From: Colwellia sp. MB02u-6
Lineage (GTDB): Bacteria; Pseudomonadota; Gammaproteobacteria; Enterobacterales; Alteromonadaceae
DNA length: 64,000 nucleotides
Direction of reading: 5' to 3'
NCBI RefSeq assembly: GCF_014077095.1
Contig: NZ_JACGVG010000028.1
Coordinates: forward strand, 62,001 to 126,000
Shown here: positions 29,502-41,104 of the stretch, one piece after another
Layout: each line of letters begins with the position of its first letter
Numbering within the stretch: position 1 is the stretch's first letter
Translations under genes and position numbers: made by a program
The notes under the pieces: model-generated
Seen by the model: the letters and a program-made list of their open reading frames with translations, nothing else
Told to the model about the DNA's origin: nothing
Database searches by the model: none

Positions 29502-30353
29502 TTATTGGGTAAAGTGCTGAGCATGAAAACGTAAGTGCTCTTCAATAAATGATGAGATAAAGTAATAACTGTGATCATAACCTTCATGGATAGTTAACGC
29601 TAATGGATAACCATTAACTTTAGCTGCCGCTACTAATGTTTCAGGCTTTAACTGCTCAACCAGAAAGTTATCCGCACCGCCTTGAGTCACTTTAGCTGGA
29701 ATAAACGCTGTGGCTTTGCGCATTAATTCACTGGCATCATGATTGCGCCAATCAGCTTTGTCTTTACCTAGATAAGTGGTAAAAGCTTTTTTGCCCCAAG
29801 GCGCTTGCACTGGATTACAAATGGGGCTAAATGCCGACATTGAGCTGTAGCGCTCAGGATTTAACATCGCAATAGTTAATGCACCGTGTCCGCCCATCGA
29901 ATGACCACTAATAGCGCGTTGATCTGACACTTCAAATGTAGCTTCAATTATCGCTGGCAACTCATTAACCACATAATCGTACATCTGATAATGACGATTC
30001 CAAGGTGCTTGAGTGGCATTGACATAAAAGCCTGCGCCTTGACCCAAATCATAACCTTCATCATCGGCAACATCATCGCCGCGTGGACTAGTATCTGGAG
30101 CAACAATAGCTATACCTAATTCAGCAGCTATACGCTGTGCACCGGCTTTTTGCATAAAGTTTTCATCAGTGCATGTTAAGCCTGAAAGCCAATACAATAC
30201 GGGTACTTTTTCGCCGTTTGATACTTGCGGCGGCAGGTAAATAGCAAAGCGCATAGTACAATTCAATATTTTGGATTGATGGCTATATTGTTTCTGCCAG
30301 CCACCAAAATTTTTGTTTACACTTACGTTTTCTATTAAATGCTCAATTGTCAT
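29502..30353 (-). CDS. fghA: S-formylglutathione hydrolase
   Basis: Cytosolic serine hydrolase that splits S-formylglutathione into formate and glutathione, the last step of glutathione-dependent formaldehyde detoxification. Start at ATG 30353 (GAGGTG upstream), 283 residues, as for FrmB/FghA. Esterase-D signatures: [41 protein letters not shown] with the nucleophile Ser, and late Asp (QGGADNFL) and His (GYDHSYYFI). It follows adhC, which makes its substrate, in the same direction. Confidence 0.95.
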
Positions 30354-30372
30354 GGTACACCTCACCATATTA

Positions 30373-30412
30373 CCCCCTTTTGTGCTTACAGCTTATGCTG
30401 TAAAAAAGGGGG
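30373..30412 (-). other. intercistronic stem-loop between adhC and fghA
   Basis: Outer arms CCCCCTTTT / AAAAGGGGG (30373-30381 with 30104+300, i.e. 30404-30412) and inner arms TTACAGC / GCTGTAA (30386-30392 with 30397-30403), separated by a four-base bulge on one side. In the minus-strand transcript there is no U-run after it, so it is more likely an RNA-stabilising or processing hairpin than a terminator. It ends 20 bases before the fghA start. Confidence 0.75.
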
Positions 30413-30477
30413 AAAAAATTATATTAAGTTAGCTTGCAATTTATTTTTAAGATAAGTCACAGCGATTAAAATCAAGC

Positions 30478-31662
<1,185 letters not shown>

Positions 31663-33301: not shown

Positions 33302-33916
33302 TTAAAATTTATATGTCAATCCTAAATAGAAAATATTAACATCATTAACATCAAGCGCATAACGCTTAATGCCAGCATTAACTCCCCACACCTCATCTAT
33401 TTTATAAGTGCCTTCAATGCCATAATACATATCAATACCGTCGTTATGATGATCAATGTGTTGATTTTCATAGACACTAACAACATCGCTATCCCAAATT
33501 AACACCCCAAATAGAACAGAGACATTATATTGCTCACTTTGTAAAAAATGATAGTGACCATTAAGTCCGATTCCTTTAACTAAAACAGGCACAATTTTAG
33601 CAACACTTTGGTGATACTCACTCACGATAAGTGTATCGCCCATTATTGCTAAAGACCCTTTACCCATATCAACATAGCTCAGTGTTACACTCCAATCCGT
33701 GGTGATATTAGTCCCTATACCTATAGACCAGCTTGTTGCTTTGTTATCAATTTGAGTAATAACCCCAACAGGAACGTGCTTAAAAACCCCTGAATCTTTT
33801 GCTTTCGCTTGACCAAGTTCAGCTTTAATGAAAGTGTCAAGCTTTGGTGCTTGAGCAGCATAGCTACTCAAACTTATACTCAAGCTAAGCAGCACCCATA
33901 AATTTAAGCATTGCAT
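33302..33916 (-). other. possible separately translated outer-membrane barrel protein inside the giant frame
   Basis: An internal ATG at 33916 begins MQCLNLWVLLSLSISLSSYAAQ, a textbook signal peptide with a cleavage site near SYA, followed by about 180 residues of alternating beta strands (SVTLSYVDMGKGSLAIMG, YGIEGTYKIDEVWGVNAGIKRYALDV) ending in the aromatic YKF expected of outer-membrane barrels. AGGT lies nine to ten bases upstream of this ATG. The module may therefore be made as an independent 204-residue protein, either instead of or in addition to the fusion. Confidence 0.5.
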
Positions 33917-36900
33917 TAATATTTTACCTATTAATGCTTTAGACGTCACTAAAGTGCTTTTTCGTCGAATAAATAGCACGACACTTCCTAGCAGTAAACT
34001 GATTTGCCCAAAACTACCGCCACTCGATTTATTGGTAATAATAATGGTTTCATAAGCATTAACTGTGACCGCAACTTGCCCTTGACTTTCACCGCCATTA
34101 TTATCACTAATGTGATAGGTAACGGTATCAACACCGTCAAAACCAGCACGTGGTGTATAAGCCAGCATGTTATTGCTTATAATTATACTACCCTGCTCTG
34201 CACTAACACTTATTAAAGTTAATTCATCGTTATCAACATCAGTGTCGTTCGCTAGTACATCAATAGTTATGGCTGTTCTATCATCCGTAGTGGCACTATC
34301 ATCTACAGTAACAGGCGCTGTATTTTCAATAACGTTGACAGCTACATCACCAAAGCCTACACCATTGTTACTGTCACTCACACCATAAACAATGGTCGCT
34401 AAACCAAAGAAATTAGCGCCTGGTTGATAGTATAATTTTTGGTCTACAATCGTCACATTACCAAAATCAACATTTGCACTGGTAATACTCAAGCTGTCTC
34501 CATCGCTATCTATATCATTAGCAAGCACATCAATTGTCACTGATTTATTTTCTGTTGTCACAACCTGCTCTGATATAATTTCTGGTAAGGTATTATTGTT
34601 GTTAAAAACAGCAACACCACTAGGGTCAACGATGCGATTATTGGCAACACCATCGTCATCATTTAAGCCACCATCTTCTAGTGTTAACTGTACACACCAA
34701 TGGCCAGCGGTCAACCCAAGGGTCCAGCTATCATCATTTGGCGCAGGACAGTATCCAATTTCTCCAGCGGCTGATGAATAGTAATTATTAGTATCTACAG
34801 CAAACTCAACCCAAACCTTATCTGACGTTAATTTACGATAAATGGCATTTTCAGGAATAGGTAAGCGTTGCGGTAATACCAGGCTAATACTTTGCCCTGC
34901 AACAGGTAACCCACTTAAGATAAAGTCAAAAATACCACCAACATTTGTCGCTTCATTATCATTGATAACTTCATCTACACTCAGTAGTAATGCACCAGAC
35001 TGATTACTCGCCGTATTAATGCCTCGACGTAAACAAGTACTTGGCTCAGTCTCAATAAGGTATAACTCATGCTGACTTATTTCTGAAGTTTGTATATTAC
35101 AACGACTATTATTGTTATCTAAGTAATCAGCAATACCGTCATCATCTGCATCACCATAGCCTTCAGCATTATCAGGAATTAAGTCACCATCGCTATCAAT
35201 ATCAGTCAATGTCGGTAATGCCTCAACAATATCAAGGTAGACAAATACTGTAGTGCTTAATGGCAACTCATTATTATCGGTGACGTTAAGTGACAATTTT
35301 TGCTGTCCTATTGCTACATTTTTGGGGTCAAAGGTAAAGCTTGTATCCTCTGTATCACTGTCAACTAATACACCACTAACACTCATCCAAGCGTAACTAT
35401 GGTTATCATCATTATTAGCATCGAATATTTCACTGCTAATAACCACTTCCCCTAAAGTTTTATCAATTAGTGTCCGTTGTTCATTATCTTGAGAAACCGT
35501 AATACTTGCTTGTGGCGTAAGATTACCTTCAGTAATAGTTAAGGTGAATACTGACTTCGCACCTAAATTAACGTTATCATCAAGAGTAATAACAACGGCT
35601 TCATCAGCTTCAATTACCCCATCACTAAAGGTATCAAATTCGATGTAGCCCAATAAACCAGCATCAATGATAAGCTCACCTAATACTAAGTCATGGTCAT
35701 TGCTATCCGCATCACCACTTACAGAGTAAGGAATGATGACAGGATAAGTCGGTGACTCACCATTTAAGTGAACAGCTACTTTATAATGAGAACCCTCAGT
35801 ACCTTTGCTGTCTAAAGCAATATTAACTAATGGCTGAACAGTAACACGCTGCGTAACAAGTCGCTTAAAGCCATCACTGTCTTGCGCTTGCCAATAGACC
35901 AAATTATTACCCGGGACAAAGCGTGTAATGCCATCAACAAGAAAAACAGGTACTGAACCACCTTCGCTGTTAATGGCCGTAGCAACACCTAAGTCAACCT
36001 TAGTAAATAAAGCCGTCGCATTAATATCAATGTCCTGAGGTAGGGTAATAACAGGCAGTAAGACATCAATATGGTTATCAAAAATAAGTGTTATGTTAGC
36101 TTTACTCTTATCGATATCCTTTGCGGCATTACCATCACTAATAGCATACTGTAATTTAATCTCACCTTCGAAAACACCTTGTATCTGAAAAATTAACTCT
36201 CCTACTTCGATGCTCGCATTACCAATAGCGCTACTAGCATCAATGATGCTCAAAAAATCGCCATCAACATCGCTGTCATTATTTAACACATCAAGTATAT
36301 AACGTCCGCTTTCACTATAGGTAAGAACAATGGTGTCATCTTTAGCGACAGGTGCATCATTAACAGGGTTAATAGTTAACTCAACAGTTACTGGCGCAGA
36401 ATCAGTTTCTGCATCCATTGCTTTATAAGTGAAGTTATCAGTGCCATTGAAGTTTGTATTAGCTATATAAATCCATATACTATCAGTCGATTGAACTAAA
36501 GATCCGTGCACTGGATCGGTCAAAATAACGTAGGTTAATTCATCTTCATCAAAGTCCTCGGCAGATAATATGATGGTTAAATCGCTATCTTCTTCAAGTG
36601 ATAGGGTCTGTGCATCTGCGACTGGAGCTTCATTGGTATTAGTCACCGTAATAGTAAAGGCAAGCAAACTTCCTACGGCATTGGCACTATCAGTCACACT
36701 AATCACAATATCTGCATAATCTGCAGCATCTGTTCTCGAAGGAGTACCCGTTAATGCACCTGTCGAGGTACTAAACCTTGCCCAGCTAGGTTTATTACTA
36801 ATGCTAAAGCTTTGAGTATCACCTGCATCAACATCACTCACTGTTGGAATAAAGCTATAAGCAGCATCTTCCGCTACGGTGGTGGCTGGCGTACCAGAAA

Positions 36901-39900
36901 TTATCGGTGCATCATTAGTATTTGACACTGTGATAGTAAATGCCGCTAAGCTTACCGTTGCATTCGCAGCATCGGTCACACTAATGACAATACCTGAGGT
37001 TATACCTATATCGGCTTGAACCGGTGTCCCAGTTAAGGCGCCGGTGGTCGTACTAAACGCTGTCCAGCTAGGTTTATTGGTAATGCTAAAGGTTTGAGTG
37101 TCACCGGTATCAACATCAGAAACCGTTGGAATAAAGCTATAAGTCGCATTTTCAGCTACGGTTGTGGCTGGCGTACCAGATATTATAGGGGTATCGTTAG
37201 TATTTGCTACCGTGATAGTAAATGCGCTTAAACTAACCCTTGCATTCGCAGCATCAGTCACACTGATGACAATACCACTAGTTATACCCACATCGGTATT
37301 CCTTGGTGTACCCGTTAAGCCACCTGTTGAAGTACTAAATATTGCCCAGCTAGGTTTATTGGTAATGCTAAAGCTTTGGGTATCACCGGTATCAACATCA
37401 GAAACTGTTGGGGTAAAGCTATAAGTGGCATCTTCAGCTACCGTTGTGGCTGGCGTACCAGAAATTATCGGGGCGTCATTAGTGTTTGTTACCGTCAAAC
37501 TAAAGGCCGCTAAGCTTACCGTTACATTCGCAGCATCTTTGACACTGATAATAATACCTGAGGTGGTACCTATATGGGCTTGAACCGGTGTCCCAGTTAA
37601 GGCGCCGGTGGTCGTATTAAACACTGACCATGTGGGTTGATTGGTAATGCTAAAGGTCTGGGTATCACCGCTATCAACATCAGAAACTGTTGGGGTAAAG
37701 CTATAAGTGGCATCTTCAGCTACCGTTGTGGCTGGCGTACCTGTTATTACCGGTGCATCGTTGGTGTTTGATACCGTCAGACTAAAGGCTGCTAGGCTGT
37801 CTGATGCATTAGCAGCATCGGTAACACTAATGACAATACCAGCAGTTGTACCCACATCCGCATTAGTGGGTGTACCCGTTAAGCTACCTGTTGAAGTACT
37901 AAAGGTTGCCCAGCTAGGTTTGATATTAATACTAAAGGTTTGTACATCACTGCTATTTGTATCTGTTACCGTTGGCGTAAAAGTATACACTAAATCCTCT
38001 ATTGCAGTATTGCTCGGCGAACCACTGATGACTGGTGCAAAATTTGTTATCTCTGTGATCGTCGGTATATCGATAATTTCTATCAACTGTGTTGTTTGAT
38101 TATAGAGGCCCACTAAAAAGTCATTCGTATTACCGAGCGTAACTGGGGCAGCTAATGCCCAACTGCCTTCATTAACAGATACAGACGCCAACGCCGTATT
38201 ATTATCAGCAACACCATCGTTGTTATTATCGGTGTAAAGGTAGATTACCATGCCGTTGGTGGGACTAGTGCCAGAGATATTGAAACTGCTGCCTTGCACT
38301 TGTGTATTAGCTGCTGGAACTAACACAGATATAGAGGGATTGTTGTTATACTCAAGCGTTAGCTGGTTAGACGAAGGGTTTTTAACGCTATTTTCTACCA
38401 GATCATCAACGCTATTAGCGGGTAAATCTACCGTCACGTTGCCGTTACTTGAGGGAATAAGATCCACCTGATAGCTTTTACCTGAACCACTAAAGTTAAC
38501 TAAGGTGGCATTATTAACAACTAAGTCATCTACTGTAAAGTTGATGACCTCGCGGCTAAAATTAATATTAACAAGTATAGGGTTACTGGCTGTTGGATTG
38601 CCAGCGGTGCTTGTAAGCAATGCCGTTAACGATTGAACTTCCAATGTAGCCGTTGCAGCAACACTGGTTGTAATAATACTATTAACAGAGGCACTAACAT
38701 CGCTAGTGACACTATTGTATACTCCATCTACCGCACCAGCTGGTACTTGAAGATCAACAGTAAAGGTACAGGATGCTCCAGAGTCTAAATTTCCTCCTGC
38801 AAAATTTAAAAATGTTGTACCTGTGATACTTGACCCGACGCCACAAGGGTCTGTAAGCGGATTGTTCGCCTGCAATGAGTTAATCACTGAAGTCATTGAA
38901 TCAGTAAATCCAATAGATGTAGCATCAGCAGAGGTGTTAGTAAGCGTATAAGTCAGCGAAACGTTACTACCAGCTAACACAACATCAGGACTAAAAGACT
39001 TAGTTAAATGCAAGGCACTGATTACAAGGGTATCGGAGGCTGCAGCGCTGTTAACTGCTTGCCCAGCGGTACTTCCTGCTACTACTGAGCTGTTTAGCGT
39101 AATAATATCAGGAGCTGCATTATTGGGTACTAACAATGTAACAGAAAAAGTACATTGGTTAGCACTTGATAAAGAGCCGTTAGAAAATGTGAGTATTGAA
39201 CTGCCACTAATAGTCGAGCCAACACCACAGACGTCACCAGAAGGTATTGATACTGCAGTCAATCCACTCAAACCAGCATCCAAATCAACAGTAAAAGCAA
39301 GGTTGGAAACATCTGCGGAAGCACTTTCACTGTAATCAAGCGTAAACTCTAAGGTCACTTGCCCCCCTGGCGCTATTTGTTCTTCAACAATTGCCAACGA
39401 CAATTTAGCGGCACTAATAACCGATAAAGTGTCCTGAGCTTGATTACCATAAACAGTTTCACCATTAACAATGCCAGCAATAGTTGAAGTAGTGATAGAA
39501 TGTATACCAAAAGAAATGTCTGCAGGTAAGCTAAGCACAAGATCAAAGGTACAGCTGCCCCCAGCACTTATTACACCACCAGAAAAGCTGAATAGATACG
39601 GCTCAGAACTAGTTTGGGGTGCTGAGAAGGTGCTGCCATTGCCACAGGTATCTGCATTAGGTAATGTATCAGGCACCATACCAGCCACTATAGAACCTAT
39701 AAGCATAGTAAAGTTTAAATCAGAAGCGCTGTTCGTGGTATCGGTGTTTGTAACAACATAACGCAAGGTCACGTTTTCACCACTTTTAACAGGGGTGCTG
39801 AGAAAAGACATACTAACTTGTGGTGCCTTTTTAATTGCCAGTATATTAGCCACGGCGGCTTTAGTAGTGGCCGAACCTAAAACTAAACTAATGACACTTG

Positions 39901-41104
39901 TGGTGTTAGTGTAATTCCCGGCAGCGGCACTTGCAGGTATTAATACGCTGATCTTAAATGTACACGAAGCTTCTGCCGACAAATTAGCACCCGTAACGGT
40001 AATCGGGCTTGGACCTGAGCTGCGGCCGTTGCTGCCTAAAATTGGGCTTGGTATTGTTAGGCTAGAACCAGCACCACAAAAACCGTCAGCCGGCAGTGCT
40101 GTAGCTGTTAGTCCACTTAATGTCGCATCAAGATCATTGGTAAAACTGATGTTTTCAGCGGCATTAACCCTATCAAAATTATTAATAGTATAGATAAGGT
40201 CAACCGTTGCACCGGGGACACTAGTATTTGGAAAGGTCATAAACATAAATGAACTAGCCACTGTTAGTTCAGCGCTAGCCTGACCACTGGGATTACTACC
40301 AAACCGTGATAAATCATTACTTTTAGTCTGATAAACGCCAGCAGAAGGCGCTGTTACATCTACTGAAACAGTACAGGTTGCACCGGCACTAACAGCTGCA
40401 CGTTCGCTGGCTAATGTGGAAGAGCTAGGCTCTACAACCACCGTTGCTGAGCAGCTATCAGTAATATTAGGCTGCTGAGAAAAAATTAGTCCAGTTGGCA
40501 AGCTATGGCTAAACGCTAAAAAACTAATATCCGAGCCATTAGCACTATTATCTATGGTATAAGTTAAAGTACTAATCGCGCCTGGAGCAATTGTAGCCGG
40601 TGAAAAATCCATACTAAGACCGGGACGATTATTATCGACTGTTAATATCGCTGAGCTCGTACCCGCACTGCCAGCGCTAGTGCTTAGTGCGCCAGTGATG
40701 TTATTATGATCACCTCCAGAGCTACTAGTAACATCAACTTGAAAACTACAGCTTGCACCCGCGTTTAAACGGTAATCACTAAAGGAGATCGCACTACTCC
40801 CTGGTGTGGAAGAGTAGCTACCGTTAAGACAAGTATTGAGTGCAAAAGCCGGTGAGGCGATGGTCATACCGGCAGGGAGTGTATCGGAAAAGTTAAGTTC
40901 ACTAACACCGGTTGCCTGCGCCGAGTTGTCAATGGTATAGGTCATAGTTGAGACACTACCAGGACCTATCGCTGTCGGGGAAAAGCTCACACTAAATATT
41001 GGCGTGCTCAAGGGCACGGCATGGCTTAAAAAGTTCCACATTAGGCAACCCGCAAGTGCCAAAGCTTGGAAGAGGCTGGGTATAAAAGACATTTTTTTAT
41101 TCAT
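33302..41104 (-). CDS. giant 2600-residue surface repeat protein with GlyGly-CTERM-like tail fused to an outer-membrane barrel domain
   Basis: A secreted multidomain protein. Order: signal peptide ([19 protein letters not shown]); about six DUF7933/DUF11-like repeats ([21 protein letters not shown] type) to roughly residue 830; Ig-like segments; five near-identical 94-residue putative-Ig (He_PIG) repeats (about 1021-1490); cadherin-like/VCBS-type domains; a Calx-beta-like domain; a thrombospondin-3-like Asp-rich stretch ([29 protein letters not shown]); a choice-of-anchor U-like domain ([22 protein letters not shown]); two more VCBS repeats; then SSGGSFG + hydrophobic + RRK at 2360-2382, the layout of a GlyGly-CTERM sorting tail. 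Unusually the frame goes on: a second signal-peptide-like segment (2397-2418) and a beta-rich outer-membrane barrel domain ending in YKF. Likely an adhesin or matrix protein with calcium-dependent domains; function inferred. Last gene of a three-gene set. Confidence 0.85.
   Translation of the reverse strand: [2600 protein letters not shown]
36635..38044 (-). repeat. five tandem 282-bp repeats inside the giant gene
   Basis: Each unit encodes a 94-residue Ig-like domain ([20 protein letters not shown] ... SVTDAANA). Recurring landmarks, such as the bases for GTPA at about 36889, 37171, 37453 and 37735, are spaced exactly 282 apart. Units two to five are highly similar at DNA level, indicating recent duplication or gene conversion, so copy number may vary between strains. 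The first unit ([12 protein letters not shown]) is the most diverged. Confidence 0.9.

Follow-up and report, generated by a model that had tools for sequence, protein, structure and literature searches.

Background

The GlyGly-CTERM sorting tail is described as lying at the extreme C-terminus of a protein (PMC3237569). In Vibrio cholerae, rhombosortase cuts VesB so that its second glycine is exposed, and the glycine is joined to a glycerophosphoethanolamine-containing moiety ahead of type II secretion; GlpG can also cut VesB, inefficiently (PMC6219818). A group of +197 Da has been reported on VesB. The gene considered here shares with this system a tripartite tail (Gly/Ser motif, helix and basic residues), a gene for the protease and a gene for type II secretion (PMC3237569, PMC6219818, PMC13393428). 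It differs in that the tail is internal: after its basic residues (RRK) the frame continues for about 220 residues, which include another signal peptide and then an outer-membrane barrel.

Three other described arrangements come close. Bradyrhizobium FbcH (cytochrome b/c1) is reportedly a bacterial polyprotein that is divided once, at an internal signal peptide, into an inner-membrane protein and a c-type cytochrome. Like FbcH, the present gene has a single open reading frame (ORF) for two envelope proteins with an internal signal peptide as the divider; unlike FbcH, a cleavable sorting tail abuts the signal, two proteases are expected, and the fused or split state has changed many times. The barrel also departs from the usual OmpA-like eight-stranded barrels (PF13505, PF01389), since it accompanies a passenger with a GlyGly-type tail, either as its pair or fused behind it. 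Finally, type V autotransporters and inverse autotransporters likewise place a passenger and a barrel in one chain, but here there are an intervening hairpin, an eight-strand OmpA-type barrel and natural split counterparts.

In the titles and opening parts of abstracts of open-licence PMC articles, neither an internal GlyGly-CTERM nor such a passenger-barrel pair was found described. We take the parts to be known and the arrangement, in which a sorting tail is used internally, to be new. It breaks the rule that a GlyGly-CTERM ends a protein, and annotation consequently reads such chains as one protein; for example, a Pseudoalteromonas relative is annotated as a single "Ig-like domain-containing protein" of 2867 residues.

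Layout of the fused gene

The window is a stretch of 64,000 nucleotides from Colwellia sp. MB02u-6. The original prediction, that a GlyGly-CTERM-like tail is followed in frame by a second signal peptide and an outer-membrane barrel, is confirmed within one ORF, which is divided as follows.

33302..41104, minus strand: whole fused ORF (passenger, GlyGly-CTERM-like tail, second signal peptide and barrel), 2600 aa
41018..41104, minus strand: first (N-terminal) signal peptide, residues 1 to about 29 (ending ...FLSHA, before V), cleavage site predicted by the small-residue rule
34016..41017, minus strand: passenger, with DUF7933 repeats, He_PIG/cadherin/Big_9 (tandem-95) repeats and choice-of-anchor U, ending in the GlyGly motif
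34016..34033, minus strand: NKSSGG motif; the predicted rhombosortase cut would expose the second glycine, a position taken by analogy with VesB (PMC6219818)
33968..34015, minus strand: first hydrophobic helix, SFGQISLLLGSVVLFI
33917..33967, minus strand: RRK and a 14-residue linker, a predicted cytoplasmic hairpin loop (topology by the positive-inside rule)
33857..33916, minus strand: second, internal signal peptide, MQCLNLWVLLSLSISLSSYA, whose first codon is ATG (33916)
33305..33856, minus strand: mature eight-stranded OmpA-fold outer-membrane barrel, last residues YKF

The tail contains the Gly/Ser motif, the hydrophobic helix and the basic residues of the GlyGly-CTERM pattern, and scores 13.5 bits against TIGR03501, below the cut-off of 15.5. 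The putative internal signal peptide has an n-region, a hydrophobic core and a small-x-small site just before the barrel. The barrel itself scores 35.1 bits against the OMP_b-brl profile (cut-off 28.7), which places it among the OmpA-like barrels; its structural model has eight strands in an OmpA fold, and its top-ranked matches are OmpA, NspA and OmpW.

A repeat-rich passenger and a barrel in one frame, together with the annotation of the Pseudoalteromonas relative as one protein, could also be read as a single uncleaved chain, displayed in the manner of an autotransporter or inverse autotransporter. We consider this very unlikely. The structural model has eight strands and not the twelve-strand translocator with a through-pore linker helix of the autotransporters (type Va), and the best matches are likewise to OmpA, NspA and OmpW rather than to twelve-stranded translocators. 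Moreover, the conserved hairpin, which is of an inner-membrane type, would be expected to retain such a chain in the inner membrane, and an uncut chain could hardly seat an OmpA-type barrel in the outer membrane with its hairpin in the inner one. Both parts are also separate proteins in relatives (see below). Of the earlier suggestion of a deliberate passenger-plus-barrel fusion, the fusion stands, in that it is maintained, and the single chain is disfavored, since the conserved hairpin and the signal-peptidase site point to two products.

Among four passengers examined, the heads differ (DUF7933; DUF4347 with fn3; FG-GAP; a ubiquitin domain), and the Big_9/cadherin-like repeats, the tail and the barrel are nevertheless kept together. 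This combination of variable heads with constant repeats, tail and barrel suggests that the barrel may serve the passenger at its tail end, perhaps as its anchor or receptor.

Fused relatives and the hairpin signature

A search for the barrel in 295 genomes of the family returned matches in 79, many of them within open frames 1110 to 7208 residues long. A single frame spans the GlyGly tail, basic turn, second hydrophobic stretch and barrel in 27 of the first 30 loci returned; the other three are separate barrels. Within the family 47 fused junctions were collected, from all places found in the barrel search except one (G150:C82), which has stops. A scripted signature, consisting of a Gly/Ser motif, a helix, at least two basic residues, a second helix and a signal-peptidase cleavage site, is passed by 43 of these 47 junctions. 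Among the controls, it is passed by one of the 529 windows of equal size taken from within these passengers, and by 104 of the 4700 junction sequences obtained by shuffling. Two junctions (L031 and L072) miss the thresholds of the script, with a hairpin visible by eye, and another (L084) fails with the hairpin present and GG absent. In L075 (G284:C1:1128000-1147200) the hairpin lies about 200 residues further upstream and is followed by a second signal of the lipoprotein type (ITLTAC), about 200 linker residues and then the barrel; this locus appears to be a variant with a lipoprotein-type signal for the second part.

The GG pair is not universal among fused forms. In genus code g18 the glycines are displaced (SSGTMGG, SSGSLGG and similar, in L071-L074) or the pair is absent (SSGSLGS, in L078 and L079); among named forms, the g18 kind is represented by a Pseudoalteromonas record (L170). 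In Rheinheimera forms the sorting tail and the signal peptide share a single RRR, which supplies the basic residues that close the former and open the latter. When TIGR03501 is compared with the aligned junction sequences, 19 of 27 match at E values up to 10, a limit at which matches may lie below the cut-off of the family. NCBIfam TIGR04219 (short name OMP_w_GlyGly) matches 5 of 27 junction-barrel sequences weakly, and is absent among the matches listed at E 0.01 for ten separate barrels (for two of the ten, among the best 25 families).

Other searches also gave fused forms. A scan of named genomes, which used NKSSGG as its search pattern, found 36 loci, 31 of them fused (several truncated where a contig or the locus ends); the fused form occurs in records of Rheinheimera, Alishewanella, Arsukibacterium and Colwellia and in metagenome-assembled genomes. 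Among 30 loci listed from an order-wide profile search, 26 are fused by eye, in eight families and including single-contig genomes; the profile contains the junction and so favors fused forms, and 26/30 is not a rate of fused over split loci. A plasmid search returned three Pseudoalteromonas records, two without annotation at the locus; the third is the one annotated with a single protein of 2867 residues.

Split relatives

Five of the 36 named loci are split: Colwellia ponticola, Bowmanella denitrificans, two Catenovulum agarivorans and an uncultured Alteromonadaceae. In each, a stop codon follows shortly after the same tail, and the barrel is an ORF of its own with its own signal peptide. 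The stop codon that the original prediction proposed to look for between tail and barrel is found in split relatives and is absent from fused ones. The same note had named, as evidence against its reading, relatives that are always fused and lack a recognizable tail; what the relatives present is a recognizable tail and both the fused and the split state.

In the unnamed set, an ORF with a GlyGly-type tail near its C-terminus lies directly upstream of 30 of 36 separate barrels (28 by script; L100 and L121 by eye); in a few of the split loci (among them L104 and L106) the tail is Gly/Ser-rich with no GG. No such tail-bearing ORF was found directly upstream of the other six (L124, L126, L127, L129, L130 and L132). 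In 28 of the 30 pairs an ATG that fits the barrel lies between -11 and +31 nt, measured from where the upstream stop ends; this is a liberal count, as the ATG nearest to the stop was chosen where several fitted. In 16 pairs the ATG overlaps the stop, as in the ATGA of L090/L091 and the TAATG of L063.

Repeated change between the fused and split states

A maximum-likelihood tree was built from 83 barrels, of which 47 are fused (L075 included), 30 are split and six are unassigned. Rows removed beforehand were duplicates (L006, L007, L032, L114), short pieces (L117, L134, L109), a weak match (L108), a second match of 216 aa on L130, and the named loci L034-L069, which overlap with the unnamed set. 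Changes of state were counted, without regard to direction (fusion or fission), over the 77 labelled rows, leaving uncounted the six barrels listed above (label U). The tree requires nine changes (bootstrap range 8-9), of which six are forced by well-supported (starred) branches; the count drops to five when 11 long-branch rows, whose placement is unsure, are left unlabelled. Thus, the fused and split states have interchanged repeatedly. The fused state is shared by the gene in the window (L004) and L005, whereas the starred clade sister to them, L090 with L091, is split. To judge from these split relatives, the ATG at 33916 that begins the internal signal is perhaps a relic of a formerly separate gene.

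How easily the state can change is seen in two loci that share a genus code, L033 (fused) and L093 (split): in the alignment of their junctions a 2-nt indel lies directly after the RRL codons, and in L093 an 11-nt gap separates the stop from the ATG. Such an indel makes fusion mutationally easy, and thereby lends something to the idea of a recent stop-codon loss, or an error of sequencing or assembly, in this genome alone. That idea is nonetheless extremely improbable, given that fusion is seen in 47 of the 83 family barrels of the tree, that fused forms occur by eye in seven further families of the order, single-contig genomes included, and that the junction is under purifying selection (see below). 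The stop-codon loss first proposed for this locus therefore survives as a plausible origin of the fusions, in view of the split pairs and the L033/L093 indel, and fails as a one-off accident, since the fused state is widespread and selected.

The presence of the same two proteins in fused or split form within one family, and even one genus code, provides a natural experiment on what sorting signals can replace.

Selection and internal start codons

Across 32 pairs of fused genes, dN/dS reaches 0.28 in the first helix, 0.14 in the barrel, and 0.12 both in RRR plus the signal and in the last Ig repeat, with 0.00 in NKSSGG or its counterpart; these values are averages and not independent tests, since the pairs overlap and come mostly from two genus codes. 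The pairs were chosen by barrel homology alone; L030/L031 and L077/L081 gave no row, as pairs of unequal length were skipped. Thus, the junction is under purifying selection. A dN/dS calculation on the named loci was discarded: these loci had been fetched by the NKSSGG pattern, and the motif is conserved there through the choice of data.

The barrel could also be made separately, by internal or coupled translation that restarts at ATG 33916, with the read-through chain as a by-product. The window's ATG is preceded by AGGT, a weak signal; the stop/start overlaps of the split relatives are typical of translational coupling; and among 46 fused genes an ATG is present in 34, within a range from 16 residues before the second hydrophobic stretch to 2 residues into it. 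However, in the same range nine genes have only GTG or TTG and three (L014, L016 and L073) have no ATG, GTG or TTG, and many of the 34 ATGs sit inside the first helix. In addition, RRR often abuts the second hydrophobic stretch, so that a barrel started separately would in many cases lack the charged n-region. An internal start is not conserved across the fused genes, and we regard this explanation as improbable, though internal initiation keeps some probability for the gene in the window, with its ATG and AGGT. Of the earlier proposal of two products through the start at 33916, two products remain probable, and the internal start is the less likely part.

Rhombosortase and type II secretion genes

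The search for rhombosortase that had been recommended for this genome finds it (162.7 bits, cut-off 84), together with GspD of the type II secretion system (540.7 bits, cut-off 351). Across the order, at E 1e-20, rhombosortase is present in 37 of 40 genomes that match the junction-barrel profile and in 172 of 305 others (Fisher p 3e-6, uncorrected for kinship). Another Fisher test, run on counts of fused forms alone as scored by eye, was set aside. Within the family, rhombosortase is near-universal (289 of 295 genomes) and does not discriminate, and its presence was dropped as a within-family test. One genome without it (G390) has a separate barrel only. Two others, G392 (99% complete) and G449 (80% complete), have fused forms and no rhomboid above the rhombosortase cut-off; their sub-cut-off rhomboid matches are open frames of 297 and 288 residues, lengths to be expected of GlpG-type rhomboids.

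A probable two-part precursor

The reading that we prefer, with a probability of roughly 0.78, is that the gene encodes a two-part precursor (polyprotein), which would be cut by rhombosortase (or GlpG) and by signal peptidase into passenger and barrel. Basic residues between hydrophobic stretches place a loop in the cytoplasm (the positive-inside rule). The basic residues of the present loop would thus make it cytoplasmic, with the passenger outside, the hairpin in the inner membrane and the barrel outside. The fused frame, the conserved hairpin with its two signals, the purifying selection on it, the split counterparts, the repeated change of state and the genes for rhombosortase and GspD are observations; the topology, both cuts, the secretion route and the barrel as a working partner of the passenger are the inferred parts of the following scheme.

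The N-terminal signal peptide would start Sec export of the large passenger. The GlyGly-CTERM-like helix would then halt transfer, so that RRK stays in the cytoplasm, and the internal signal peptide would turn the chain back, leading to export of the barrel. Rhombosortase, with GlpG as a poorer stand-in, would cut at GlyGly to free the passenger, which would probably be conjugated to lipid and reach the surface through type II secretion, like VesB of V. cholerae. A cut by signal peptidase after the internal signal would free the barrel, which could then insert in the outer membrane. The end products would match the two proteins of those relatives in which each has its own gene, the two genes being closely linked and in many cases overlapping.

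More broadly, we lean toward the view that these sorting signals, in which a rhombosortase tail directly adjoins a signal peptide, stand in for stop and start codons, so that fusion and fission would be nearly neutral and have been repeated. The barrel would then be a dedicated outer-membrane partner or anchor, made one-to-one with a giant surface protein from either one chain or overlapping genes. Such a link between rhombosortase substrates and a specific outer-membrane barrel may offer a lead on surface retention.

Other observations

Several features of these loci lie apart from the junction. An OmpA-like peptidoglycan-binding domain follows the barrel in two split loci (L101 and L133) and, by eye, apparently also in three fused ones (L086, L088 and L089). 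Two short barrel pieces, L109 and G150:C82:398778-399104, the latter with in-frame stops, may be decaying copies; L117 and L134 are barrel pieces ended by a contig boundary. Elsewhere in the window (29502-31626, minus strand), an esterase-like ORF stands beside a zinc-alcohol-dehydrogenase-like ORF, as read from the ORFs; this pair resembles what we take to be an ordinary glutathione-dependent formaldehyde detoxification pair. Lastly, the split passenger of Colwellia ponticola (L063:4651-9144) has a ubiquitin domain (PF00240, 8.2e-21) directly after its signal peptide, and is a candidate for a secreted ubiquitin-like protein in a bacterium.
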